DNA from: Kangiella shandongensis
GTDB taxonomy: Bacteria > Pseudomonadota > Gammaproteobacteria > Enterobacterales > Kangiellaceae
DNA length: 64,000 nt
NCBI RefSeq assembly: GCF_020005365.1
Contig: NZ_JACNML010000013.1
Span: forward strand, 1 to 64,000
Reading direction: 5' to 3'
Both the position numbers and the translations under genes were made by a program. The notes under the pieces are model-generated. The model saw only the letters and a program-made list of their open reading frames with translations, ran no database searches and was not told the DNA's origin. Below are positions 11,005-15,040 of this stretch, piece after piece. Position 1 is the stretch's first letter. Each line of letters starts with the position of its first letter.

Positions 11005-11664
11005 ATGCAATACGACAGCCCTGAAGCACTTTTAAATCAAGCGCAAAGCTTTGCCGGCTATAGCCTCGGCGAGCTGGCCGAGCAATATAAAGAGCAAATT
11101 CCGCAACAACTGCTGCATAAAAAGGGCTGGATCGGTCAATTTCTCGAATTAATTCTTGGCGCAGAATCGGGTTCACTGGCTCAACCTGACTTCCCCGAGC
11201 TCGGGATCGAGCTGAAAACCCTACCAATTGATGAAAATGGCAACCCGCTGGAGTCGACCTATGTCAGCGTGGTTCCGCTGATTAATATTCAGGGGCTATA
11301 CTGGGATAATTCCGTAGTCCGCCATAAACTGATGCATGTACTGTGGGTTCCGATTGTTGCCAGTAAACACTTAGCGGTTGAAGAGCGACAAATCGCCATG
11401 CCATTTCTATGGCGACCAAGTGCCGAAGAGGAACAAACCTTAAAACAGGATTTTGAAGATGTACTGGATCAGGTATCAATGGGGAATATAGAAAACCTTG
11501 ATGCACGGTATGGTCAAATTCTACAAGTACGCCCGAAGGCCGCTAATGCAAAAGCTCTGACCGATGCTATCGGACCGGAAGGCAAAACGATCCAAACACT
11601 GCCCAGAGGATTTTACCTACGACCACAGTTCACTAAAAAGTGTCTGCAACAACAGTTCAGTTAG
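11005..11664 (+). CDS. mutH: DNA mismatch repair endonuclease MutH
   Basis: MutH nicks the unmethylated strand at hemimethylated GATC sites when activated by MutS and MutL. The catalytic triad is visible in QPDFPELGIELKTLP: Asp62, Glu69 and Lys71, with the same spacing as Asp70/Glu77/Lys79 of E. coli. The WIGQFLELILGAESGS segment before it is also conserved, and the length of 219 residues is normal. Its presence implies Dam-directed repair in this organism. The 3' end overlaps the convergent TPR gene by 8 bases. Confidence 0.96.
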   Translation: MQYDSPEALLNQAQSFAGYSLGELAEQYKEQIPQQLLHKKGWIGQFLELILGAESGSLAQPDFPELGIELKTLPIDENGNPLESTYVSVVPLINIQGLYWDNSVVRHKLMHVLWVPIVASKHLAVEERQIAMPFLWRPSAEEEQTLKQDFEDVLDQVSMGNIENLDARYGQILQVRPKAANAKALTDAIGPEGKTIQTLPRGFYLRPQFTKKCLQQQFS

Positions 11665-12754
11665 CTTCTTCCAGTCTAGCTAACTGCTCTGCTCTTAAAC
11701 GCTGTCGCGCTTGATCATAGGCTAACTTCCGCTGTCGACTCGAAGTATTAAGCTTTTGCTCTAGCTCCATGTATTTCTGATAGTACTTTATGGCTTCTTC
11801 TTTTTTTTCTAATTCTGAATAAAGTTTCGCCAATACTTGTGTAGCATTCTTTGAGCGCTTCACATCACTAATCTCTTCTGCTGTCTTTAGCGCTTTAAGA
11901 GCTAGCTCTTCAGACTTTTCATAATCTTGTAGTATAAAAAAGACTTCTGCCAAATGAATTTCAGTACTGGCGTTGAGTATTTTCCAACCATACTCTTTAA
12001 CCTTTGGGTAGTTAGCTTCGAGTAATTCTTTTGCCTTTGTGAGCTGACCTCTTCCCAGAGCTATCTCCGCTTCCATGTTAGGAAGGTGTAATAGTGGAAG
12101 AGTACCTTTAGCCTTATGGCAAATATCATAGGTTTTTTCCAACCGACTATCCGCCAGCTCTACTTTATCAGCAGAAAGTTCTATCACCGCCATTTCAAAA
12201 TATGCCTGACATTGATCGGCCAAATTTTTATCCTCAACGCCGTGCTTTAACAATCTCCGGGCATATTCCATCGCGTAATCCAGCATACCGGAGTCGTTAT
12301 AAAAACTTAAAGCATTTTGCAAGATATTAGTTTTATAGACCTTATTTTCCATCTTCGGGATGAGCGCTAACGCTCTATCAAGATTCATGAAGGAGTATAC
12401 ATACTTTCCTTGTATTTGCTGAACAGACGCTAAAATCGAGTAAGCACGCCCTTTGTAATCATGCTTGGCATCACTCTTTATGATCTCCTGCAACAACTTT
12501 TCAGCCTCAGCGAAATTACTATGCATTACTTCGGAGTGGGCTTTGAGCAGTGTGTACAGATACTTCTCTTCATCGCTAAACTCAGCTTTCTTCTCAGCAA
12601 TTTCCTCTAACGCCGTTTTAGTTGAAGCAAGGTCATCCAATCTTTGTTCTTCAATAACTTTTAGCTGCTGATAGTAATCAGCTCTGACAAACCAAGCTGT
12701 AAGTAACAGAGGAATAAGAATAATGTATGATATTTTTCTTATTGAAAAGTTCAT
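11657..12754 (-). CDS. exported TPR protein, second of a tandem pair
   Basis: A 365-residue protein with an uncleaved or cleaved N-terminal signal (MNFSIRKISYIILIPLLLTA), followed by helical repeats. The TPR-like pairs are visible as KGRAYSILASVQQIQGKYVY, QNALSFYNDSGMLDYAMEY, IHLAEVFFILQDYEKSEELA and QVLAKLYSELEKKEEAIKYY. It ends in a charged coiled coil (RQRKLAYDQARQRLRAEQLA). Its ATG overlaps the upstream paralogue's stop (TAATG). The architecture looks like the sensor half of TPR-containing diguanylate cyclases or kinases, but with no output domain. Function unknown. Confidence 0.75.
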   Translation of the reverse strand: MNFSIRKISYIILIPLLLTAWFVRADYYQQLKVIEEQRLDDLASTKTALEEIAEKKAEFSDEEKYLYTLLKAHSEVMHSNFAEAEKLLQEIIKSDAKHDYKGRAYSILASVQQIQGKYVYSFMNLDRALALIPKMENKVYKTNILQNALSFYNDSGMLDYAMEYARRLLKHGVEDKNLADQCQAYFEMAVIELSADKVELADSRLEKTYDICHKAKGTLPLLHLPNMEAEIALGRGQLTKAKELLEANYPKVKEYGWKILNASTEIHLAEVFFILQDYEKSEELALKALKTAEEISDVKRSKNATQVLAKLYSELEKKEEAIKYYQKYMELEQKLNTSSRQRKLAYDQARQRLRAEQLARLEEAN

Positions 12755-13818
12755 TACAGCTGACCACGCCTAGCGATATCAAAAGCTAACTTTCTTTGCC
12801 TTACTCTAACCTTGTTCTCAGTATTTAACTCTCTAAACTCATTATAATATTTTAAGGCCTCTTCCTTTTTATCACTTTCAGAATAAATCTGCGCCAAAAT
12901 TCCAGCAGCTTGCTCCTGCCTTCTCTTATCTTGCGCTTCAACTGCGGTTTTATACGCTTCTAATGCAAACTTCTCTGCATTAGCAAAATCATCCATACGG
13001 ATATAGTTTTCAGCAATGACTTTATTAGTTCCTGCTATCAGTATTTTCCAACCAATAGCTTCAACTTTTTCTAGAACTTTCATTAAGCGAGCATTACTCT
13101 TCTCCGGTTCTCCTTCTACTCCCTCAATCTCTGCAAGAAAAGACTCGGTTAAGAGGCTAAAGAGTTTGCTATCTGAGTTTTCGCAATGACTCTTTGCTAA
13201 TAAGAGTCTTTGCTTTGACATTTTAGTCTCACCCACCATTAGCTCTATTGTTCCTAGCTCATAATTCGCTACACATAAAAATGTTTCGTCATCATGTTTC
13301 TGAGCTTCGATTTGTAGCCTACGTCCAACTTCTAGAGCATACTCAAATAATTCTGCTTCTTTGTATATTCCAACTGATGTCTGCAAGATACCAATCCTAT
13401 ACCTCGCTCGACTCACCGCAGGTAACGCATTTATTGCTTTATCTAAAGCAACGAACGCCTCAACATTATTTCCGATGATATGTTCAACTCCAGCCAAAGT
13501 TATATTAGCCTTCGCTTTAATGTCACTAGATTGAGCTTCTTTCGAAAGGGAGGTTAGAACATTTCGCGCTTCTTTTAATTCCGAATGCATATAATGTTTT
13601 TGCGCTACTAAGAGTTGATAAAGATCGCTTTCTTTTTTATTAAACTCCTTTTCTTTTTGTCCTAATTCGTCAACTTTTTTTTTCACAAAGGCGTTACCGT
13701 TGAGCATACTTTTCTCAAGCTCTAATAACTCTTCGTAATAGTTGTTGGCGTACGCCTGATTAACCATAATTACTAAAATTATTGTAACGGAGGCTTTAAA
13801 ATTCCATCTTAGTTTCAT
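12754..13818 (-). CDS. exported TPR protein, first of a tandem pair
   Basis: ATG 13818, with a GGAG site nine bases upstream, gives 354 residues. The first 25 (MKLRWNFKASVTIILVIMVN then QAYA) form a cleavable signal peptide ending in an Ala-x-Ala-like site. Repeats follow the same plan as the downstream paralogue: KANITLAGVEHIIGNNVEAF, LQTSVGIYKEAELFEYALEV, KVIAENYIRMDDFANAEKFA and GILAQIYSESDKKEEALKYY. It ends RQRKLAFDIARRGQL. It begins 91 bases after the borosin methyltransferase stop on the same strand, so it may share the transcript. Duplication with divergence is evident; the role is unknown. Confidence 0.75.
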   Translation of the reverse strand: MKLRWNFKASVTIILVIMVNQAYANNYYEELLELEKSMLNGNAFVKKKVDELGQKEKEFNKKESDLYQLLVAQKHYMHSELKEARNVLTSLSKEAQSSDIKAKANITLAGVEHIIGNNVEAFVALDKAINALPAVSRARYRIGILQTSVGIYKEAELFEYALEVGRRLQIEAQKHDDETFLCVANYELGTIELMVGETKMSKQRLLLAKSHCENSDSKLFSLLTESFLAEIEGVEGEPEKSNARLMKVLEKVEAIGWKILIAGTNKVIAENYIRMDDFANAEKFALEAYKTAVEAQDKRRQEQAAGILAQIYSESDKKEEALKYYNEFRELNTENKVRVRQRKLAFDIARRGQL

Positions 13819-13909
13819 ATAAACTCCAAAAACACAGGAACACAATTCCTTCTGTAAATTAATGATACCAAAACAACACTAATAAATACATCGCTTACTT
13901 AATAGGCTA

Positions 13910-14689
13910 TCAACCCGTAGTAAACCCTAACTTACTTAGTATCGATTCGTTATACTCTAACTCCCTAACTGGAGGTATCACAAGTGTCGTATGAAGGTTT
14001 AGTGCTTGATCTGGTAAGTCTTTTATCAATATTTTATCTTTTCTTACTTTGTCCATAGGCAAGAATTGAGCTTCGTATAATATAACCTCATGCTCTAATG
14101 GATACCAGTTTGAAAGGTGCTCTACCAATATCTCAATACTCGCCCTATCAGCAGTGAACACTTTAGCCGTATAGTCACCAGCAATAGCTATCTGCCATAA
14201 CAGGACATAACCTCTATTGTTAAGCTCATGATTAAACATCATAAACTGGGTCGCCTCAAGGCTTTGAACACCATAATCAGCAGGGTCAAAACCCAAATCT
14301 GCGTAAAGACACGACTCCGCAGAGATTCCAGGCTCCATATACGCATTAAAGCCCTCTTCTCTCGCTTTCATAATAGTTTTATGTGGCACACAAGAAAATA
14401 TTCCTGCATGTCCATAAAAGGCACCGCATACCTGTTTGCCAGCTCTGACATCTTGCATCATAGCCTCAACCATCTCATTATAAGTATCCATCCGATGCTT
14501 ACCTTCTGAATAAAATGGTTGCAGACTAATTAGTTTCGAAGTGCATTGCTGAAGCCAGCTTTCACAAAGCGCGTGAGGCACTAGGCAATAAGTTACGTCT
14601 GAGTTTTTCAAGATGCTTTTGCATCTGGTTGTTATGTGTCCTGCTAGTAACATCCCCGTACTAATAGCAGTAAAGCTTCCTTTTGTCAT
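13910..14689 (-). CDS. split-borosin peptide alpha-N-methyltransferase (tetrapyrrole-methylase fold)
   Basis: A 259-residue enzyme of the tetrapyrrole methylase superfamily with the features of the borosin OphMA/SonM group. GMLLAGHITTRC near residue 12 replaces the GTG loop, and AFYGHAGIFSCVPH near 95 lines the SAM site. MEPGISAESCLYADLGFDP near 118 and VLLWQIAIAGD near 162 are group hallmarks. Tyr60, Arg66 and Tyr70 (FYSEGKHRMDTYNEM) keep the Y-x5-R-x3-Y spacing of the catalytic residues in OphMA. It lacks a fused core peptide; the substrate is expected to be the 70-residue protein encoded 10 bases upstream. It should methylate backbone amides using SAM. Confidence 0.9.
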   Translation of the reverse strand: MTKGSFTAISTGMLLAGHITTRCKSILKNSDVTYCLVPHALCESWLQQCTSKLISLQPFYSEGKHRMDTYNEMVEAMMQDVRAGKQVCGAFYGHAGIFSCVPHKTIMKAREEGFNAYMEPGISAESCLYADLGFDPADYGVQSLEATQFMMFNHELNNRGYVLLWQIAIAGDYTAKVFTADRASIEILVEHLSNWYPLEHEVILYEAQFLPMDKVRKDKILIKDLPDQALNLHTTLVIPPVRELEYNESILSKLGFTTG

Positions 14690-14699
14690 TTTATAGCGA

Positions 14700-14912
14700 T
14701 CACTTTTTACAGAATATAACTACATAACAGTTTTGAGGGTTCCCCAAAATATTCTTAATCTCCTTTTGGTCACCATCAACCATAGCTTTTATTTCTCTCT
14801 CCTCTAGTCCAAAGTCCTTCATCACGGCTTCCGGGTTATCAACATAAGATTTATTCAACTGAGGGTCTTCAGACAGTTTAATGACAAACTCTTCAAATTT
14901 TTTCTTAGACAT
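14700..14912 (-). CDS. split-borosin precursor peptide
   Basis: A 70-residue protein with an AAGGA site six bases before its ATG. Residues 5-56 are predicted all-helical (KFEEFVIKLSEDPQLNKSYV, then DNPEAVMKDFGLEEREIKAM), matching the borosin-binding domain that docks the enzyme in SonA-type precursors. The tail, residues 57-70, ends GNPQNCYVVIFCKK; the hydrophobic YVVIF run is the likely core where backbone amides are N-methylated. Two Cys flank it, which is unusual. The partner methyltransferase starts 10 bases after the stop. The identification rests on recognised domain pattern and gene pairing; methylated positions are a prediction. Confidence 0.87.
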   Translation of the reverse strand: MSKKKFEEFVIKLSEDPQLNKSYVDNPEAVMKDFGLEEREIKAMVDGDQKEIKNILGNPQNCYVVIFCKK

Positions 14913-14983
14913 AATAGTTCCTTAAATTTCCCCTAAATAAATGCTTTTCAAGCCAAAAACGTCTTATTTATACATTACAAATA

Positions 14984-15008
14984 CTTAAAAAGCCAGCAAA
15001 GGCTGGCT
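14984..15008 (-). terminator. Rho-independent terminator of gcvP
   Basis: AGCCAGC at 14991-14997 pairs with GCTGGCT at 15002-15008 around an AAAG loop. On the minus strand it is followed by a T-rich run (TTTTTAAG, ending at 14984). It separates gcvP from the borosin genes, which therefore need their own promoter in the 70 bases before 14912. Confidence 0.85.
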
Positions 15009-15040
15009 CTTTAAGTCAAGTATCCAGTTCTCAGAAATAA

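Follow-up and report, generated by a model that had tools for sequence, protein, structure and literature searches.

A type IV split borosin gene pair in Kangiella shandongensis and its linkage to tetratricopeptide repeat proteins

The window analysed here is a stretch of 64,000 nucleotides from Kangiella shandongensis (contig NZ_JACNML010000013.1), whose 2.80 Mb genome in 26 contigs contains one borosin enzyme. Four consecutive genes on the minus strand encode a SonA-like borosin precursor of 70 aa (14700..14912), a SonM-like borosin alpha-N-methyltransferase of 259 aa with the tetrapyrrole methylase fold (13910..14689) and two tetratricopeptide repeat (TPR) proteins without a GGDEF domain: TPR1, of 354 aa from the ATG at 13818 (12754..13818; the open reading frame reaches back to a TTG at 13845), and TPR2, of 365 aa (11657..12754). 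The original prediction of a 70-aa peptide ending in NCYVVIFCKK, separated by 10 bases from a 259-aa enzyme on the same strand, is confirmed by the open reading frames. The operon continues past the enzyme with the two TPR genes (13818-11657). As TPR2 and the end of TPR1 share one base, the two are probably translated together. A terminator-like hairpin (14983..15016, minus strand), identified by consensus match only, lies after gcvP, between that gene and the four-gene unit, while mutH is convergent to the unit; precursor, enzyme, TPR1 and TPR2 therefore probably form one operon. A promoter scan of the region returned fewer matches than were found in shuffled sequence. The statement that no protease or exporter adjoins the pair agrees with the Pfam assignments of the flanks (gcvP, mutH, NUDIX and others), although it overlooked the conserved TPR neighbours.

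The assignment of the enzyme to the borosins is upheld by sequence searches. Pfam recognizes TP_methylase in the protein (E = 2.5e-15), the best matches in the PDB are SonM entries (E = 6.5e-77) and the next are the fused fungal borosin enzymes (E = 6e-45 to 1e-36, with the OphMA type at about 1e-38), whereas the best cobalamin-type match, precorrin-2 C20-methyltransferase, reaches only E = 0.0065. The closest homologue is thus SonM and not an enzyme of the CobA/CysG type, and the NCBIfam corrin and YabN models scored far under their cut-offs. The enzyme stands alone at 259 aa, without a fused core. The motifs from which it was initially recognized, Y60-x5-R66-x3-Y70, MEPGISAES and LLWQIAIAGD, are all present, and Y60, R66, Y70, Y92, F98, W165 and Q166 are invariant among 20 aligned Kangiella enzymes. 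Y60, R66, Y70 and Y92 correspond to SonM Y58, R67, Y71 and Y93, which matter according to the mutants described in passages of the SonM study (PMC8429565), while W165, Q166 and F98 are the counterparts of SonM lock residues. Other lock contacts differ on our reading of the alignment, SonM E173 being D172 and SonM Q178 being V177 in the window. The ratio dN/dS of the enzyme was 0.04 in one close pair of relatives; none is given against the nearest relative of the window because dS is saturated in that comparison.

The precursor, recognized from the list of open reading frames, a match to SonA (E = 5.6e-9) and its predicted fold, comprises a leader, the borosin-binding domain, at about residues 1-60 (14912-14733, minus strand) and a core, NCYVVIFCKK, at residues 61-70 (14732-14703, minus strand). 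The helical borosin-binding fold that had been proposed for the peptide is recovered in its AlphaFold2 model, a helical bundle (mean pLDDT 77, pTM 0.60; pLDDT 53 over the last ten residues). SonA chains take the first 28 places in a Foldseek search of the PDB with this model, for the most part at about 0.7-1.2 Å; the small size of the protein makes the Foldseek E-values weak, at 0.047 to 0.6. Alignment of the precursor with 34 relatives and with SonA places Y63-V64-V65-I66 against SonA Y62-L63-V64-I65. As SonA is methylated at L63 and I65 according to the passages available from PMC8429565, V64 and I66 are the likely methylation sites of the core by analogy. Mean identity was 71% over leader residues 1-50 and 26% over core residues 61-68 in seven distinct precursors hand-picked out of the 17 at the gcvP site. 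By eye, a cysteine stands just ahead of the hydrophobic run in 10 of these 17, and an extra one right behind the run is found in two, those of the window and K. taiwanensis. The suggestion that the two core cysteines lead to oxidation of the product is therefore unsupported, and so is an oxidized two-Cys core as a defining trait, the pair occurring in only 2/17 precursors at the site.

In its overall design the pair resembles SonM-SonA of Shewanella oneidensis as presented in passages of PMC8429565, with a separate enzyme of about 260 aa and a precursor of about 70 aa encoded by adjacent genes, a helical borosin-binding leader followed by a short hydrophobic C-terminal core, and conservation of the Y/R/Y residues of catalysis as well as of W, Q and F of the lock. 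It differs in gene order, the precursor coming first in the window and the enzyme first in Shewanella loci; in the loop of the enzyme between the first tyrosine and the arginine, which is three residues shorter; in the core itself, which in SonA reads YLVISHGN...; and in the TPR-only proteins that stand in place of one TPR-GGDEF protein. By features of sequence, motif and predicted fold, the precursor and enzyme constitute a type IV split borosin with predicted methylation, and the window pair is a new member of this class.

The arrangement is a recurrent one within the genus. A borosin enzyme was found in each of the 20 Kangiella genomes searched, with one to four matches per genome, and in 38 of 40 genomes of the family to which Kangiella belongs. 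Enzyme and precursor directly follow gcvP in 16 of the 20; mutH lies on the far side of 15 of these loci, the contig of the sixteenth ending first, and all 16 carry short TPR genes in one to four copies. Some enzyme matches from the genus search, in G001, G003, G005, G011 and G016, read stops within the aligned stretch, which may reflect overrun past the true stop in some cases and decay in others. At one locus (L038, in G004) a second, partial mutH-like open reading frame separates the third TPR gene from the fourth, which points to local duplication there. In four genomes (G008, G013, G014 and G016) the gcvP-mutH site has one or two short TPR genes without an enzyme or a convincing precursor. 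All four carry borosin loci elsewhere, so that these orphan TPR proteins may serve other loci or something else.

Both TPR proteins of the window have N-termini that, by hydropathy and by eye, look like signal peptides, ending at AYA/NN in TPR1 and VRA/DY in TPR2. Both stop after the TPR region with neither a membrane segment nor a GGDEF domain, and Pfam reports only TPR above threshold. Over their full length they match the periplasmic sensor region of borosin-linked TPR-TM-GGDEF diguanylate cyclases. With these proteins, found in Shewanella, Rheinheimera, Lysobacter and others, they share the exported TPR region, two invariant cysteines and the position in the operon; unlike them, they break off ahead of the membrane segment and the GGDEF domain, and they come as a tandem pair. 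TPR1 and TPR2 are the only matches to the TPR family profile in the window genome, which has 14 other GGDEF matches, two of them extending from the last TPR of the query onwards. With one enzyme, two family TPR proteins and other GGDEF proteins in the genome, no dedicated cyclase is visible, and any c-di-GMP output from the GGDEF-less operon would need another protein. The predicted model of TPR1 is a TPR superhelix (pLDDT 92, pTM 0.86) whose first 23 Foldseek matches are TPR domains of LGN/Pins/Gpsm2, followed by bacterial peptide receptors, namely Rap with its competence peptide, NprR and RapI; every one of these is a TPR that binds peptides. Rap and NprR belong to the RRNPP group of bacterial TPR proteins, which bind short peptides and whose genes lie close to that of the peptide. 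Receptors of this group work in the cytoplasm, on peptides that are imported, unmethylated and linear. The window proteins are likewise all-helical TPR superhelices, but their signal-peptide-like N-termini set them apart and the likeness is one of fold. Because the TPR superhelix is a generic fold, the resemblance of the TPR1 model to Rap and NprR lends weak support to peptide binding.

Linkage of this TPR family to borosin enzymes extends well beyond Kangiella. An alignment query found 565 loci, the window enzyme alone having found none in genome contigs. In the 80 closest of them, nine of which are from Kangiellaceae, a member of the TPR family lies within 2 kb on the strand of the enzyme at 79, a proportion that overstates the family as a whole since these are the closest 80 of 565; the exception (L120) is a contig of 5.9 kb. 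Within Kangiella, a member of the TPR cluster of open reading frames is present at 37 of 38 borosin loci including that of the window, the exception (L050) again being a 5.9-kb contig. TPR1 alone was too weak a query, reaching the family in only three of eight genomes of other genera, and the TPR alignment (A3) was therefore used. In eight named genomes searched in this way all 12 enzymes have a TPR member close by, and 18 of the 19 full-length members (E <= 1e-30) adjoin an enzyme. An even draw of 295 genomes from the order of Kangiella contained 108 enzymes in 70 genomes and 125 TPR members in 66; both were present in 62 genomes, the enzyme only in eight, the TPR family only in four and neither in 221 (Fisher p 1e-49, with the kinship of the genomes ignored). 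Within 6 kb of an enzyme lay 107 of the 125 TPR members (60/73 outside the genus Kangiella), and 87 of the 108 enzymes had a TPR member within that distance (52/73 outside the genus). No TPR member was found within 6 kb of the remaining 21 of the 108 enzymes in this sample, for which the search scored the six best first-look candidates per genome, so that misses are possible, using a profile itself built from borosin-linked proteins.

The usual partner at these loci is a TPR protein fused to a diguanylate cyclase domain. The TPR members at the 80 named loci divide into 83 with GGDEF and 16 without; Kangiella accounts for 15 of the 16, and the last (L128, from Shewanella) has its GGDEF in a separate neighbouring frame. 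A TPR frame of 427 aa from outside Kangiella (G142), considered as a further GGDEF-less form, has a GGDEF in the same frame after one stop and was not counted. The GG[DE]EF motif is kept in 80 of the 83 GGDEF-bearing members, as GGEEF in 79 and GGDEF in one; 71 of these 80 have RxxD at the position of the inhibitory site, and a hydrophobic segment separates TPR and GGDEF in 78/83. Kangiella also has the long form, as at its other loci the TPR protein is of 572-614 aa and the two tested have a C-terminal GGDEF (E = 7e-41 and 7.6e-42). A profile of 34 short Kangiella TPR proteins covers residues ~5-350 of TPR-GGDEF proteins, with a best E of 2.5e-47. A maximum-likelihood tree, built by a quick method, covers 141 TPR domains (two of 143 were dropped as too short). 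In it the 39 short domains are separated from the 102 GGDEF-bearing ones by a single change (SH-aLRT 99), and the GGDEF-less form of the window falls in one clade. The tree is rooted at the midpoint, the root not being established; as long forms lie on both sides of this midpoint, the simplest reading would be that GGDEF was lost once in Kangiella. The only columns identical in 141/141 domains are C182 and C212. In the TPR1 model they lie on two helices that pair with each other, 178-194 and 198-215, one cysteine mirroring the other in its distance from the turn, a placement that would suit a C182-C212 disulfide.

Kangiella harbours borosin loci of other kinds. A second family (L052, L054-L056, L058, L060, L062, L065 and L066) has a TPR-GGDEF gene between precursor and enzyme and SonA-like precursors ending like ...EYAVVVHNVKEHNL or ...CDYLTIIHHIDEHKM, and in a third (L047-L050) the core motif of the precursor is duplicated, SCSKLLLLEPTNGQDHKLLLLTPEA. 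The fourth family comprises L051, L053, L057, L059, L061, L063, L064, L067 and L068 together with the second enzymes of L047-L049; here the enzyme is followed by open reading frames of 80-100 aa with a hydrophobic run, PAEDDE... and an acidic tail, and similar tails occur in Rheinheimera loci. Whether these frames encode precursors is unsure from their sequences because the leader profile matched them weakly or not at all. Among genes that might act further along the pathway, pepsin-like aspartyl proteases were identified by Pfam near 12 of 71 named loci outside Kangiellaceae, including those of Neiella and Bowmanella (for example L099, 6089-7372, and L145, 6598-7896, with 10 further named loci), and near none of 38 Kangiella loci; they are candidates for removal of the leader. 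A search of the window genome for pepsin-like proteases (PF00026) gave no match, its control also being without one. A pepsin homologue, shewasin A, was reportedly identified in 2024 as a protease of a borosin precursor. GNAT acetyltransferases, which possibly provide a further tailoring step, were found by Pfam near 38 of the 71 named loci outside Kangiellaceae and 11 of the 38 in Kangiella.

The explanation that we favour, with moderate confidence, is that the window encodes a split borosin pair together with exported TPR proteins for which the methylated core is the ligand, a role that we infer for the peptide. The leader of the precursor would dock on a dimeric enzyme, which, by analogy with SonM-SonA, would methylate backbone amides of the core, most likely at V64 and then at I66. 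Some protease would cut the core from the leader, and the core would reach the periplasm and there bind the TPR proteins, which by homology and linkage represent the detached, GGDEF-less sensor region. In the common fused form, binding of the peptide may set the activity of the diguanylate cyclase, while the free TPR proteins of the window may bind the peptide, buffer it or hand it on, or may have some other membrane protein as their target. Several observations count against a ligand role: the four Kangiella genomes that have TPR genes without borosin genes at the gcvP-mutH site, the 21/108 enzymes without a found TPR neighbour, the lack of GGDEF in the window operon and, from the structural model, a generic TPR fold with eukaryotic LGN as its top Foldseek matches.

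The same genes can be read in other ways. An ordinary type IV split borosin could act outside the cell, in metal binding, antibiosis or a similar function, with the TPR proteins as helpers in immunity, folding or delivery. The SonM and SonA matches fit such a product, exported TPR proteins can be scaffolds, and the linkage to them shows association and not the direction of function. At the other loci, however, this TPR region forms the input half of a protein whose diguanylate cyclase is mostly intact (motif kept in 80/83), an architecture more in line with sensing than with immunity or delivery, and an enzyme held by nearly every genome of the family is more like physiology than an optional weapon; we regard this explanation as rather unlikely. 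The TPR proteins might instead regulate a diguanylate cyclase through TPR-TPR contact, with the borosin peptide modulating or anchoring the complex. RcbA and RcbB of Vibrio vulnificus, as described in passages of PMC12282931, offer a parallel in which a GGDEF-less TPR protein is paired with a TPR-GGDEF cyclase and relieves the repression of this partner via the TPR domains, and the window genome does have other GGDEF proteins, including the two whose match to the query begins at its last TPR. The parallel is one of description, however. Forms without the TPR show cytoplasmic fluorescence in the same passages, those on RcbA/RcbB name no borosin genes, in contrast to the window, and the main text of that paper contains neither 'methyltransferase' nor 'RiPP' (PMC12282931). 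As only the two TPR proteins of the locus match the family profile in the window genome, regulation in the manner of RcbA-RcbB appears decidedly improbable. That the enzyme is a cobalamin or porphyrin methylase beside an unrelated small protein would accord with its Pfam assignment to the broad TP_methylase family, but the distance between the SonM and corrin methylase matches (6.5e-77 vs 0.0065), the low NCBIfam corrin and YabN scores and the match of the precursor to SonA refute it at the sequence level and leave it a negligible likelihood.

Returning to the methylated core as ligand of the exported TPR proteins, its interest lies in the role of bacterial borosins, none being established in the portion of the open-licence literature available. 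A near-universal partner of the close relatives, which in most cases looks to be an intact diguanylate cyclase whose input region is an exported TPR, leads to a direct ligand hypothesis. At least part of the cyclase association has been noted before, since the legend to Fig. 1 of a borosin paper (PMC11395268) mentions a GGDEF domain. The tandem TPR-only form was not found in print in the full text of open-licence papers, nor did that full text contain a paper joining borosin with Kangiella, tetratricopeptide or diguanylate. Binding would be easiest to test in the Kangiella form, whose TPR proteins are soluble. It is possible, if doubtful, that backbone-methylated borosin peptides are dedicated ligands of periplasmic TPR receptors that are mostly fused to a diguanylate cyclase, and that in Kangiella the output was lost once and the free binding proteins multiplied. 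If this were true, c-di-GMP would be set by a protease-proof peptide signal, and Gram-negative bacteria would have their own equivalent of the Rap/NprR peptide systems.
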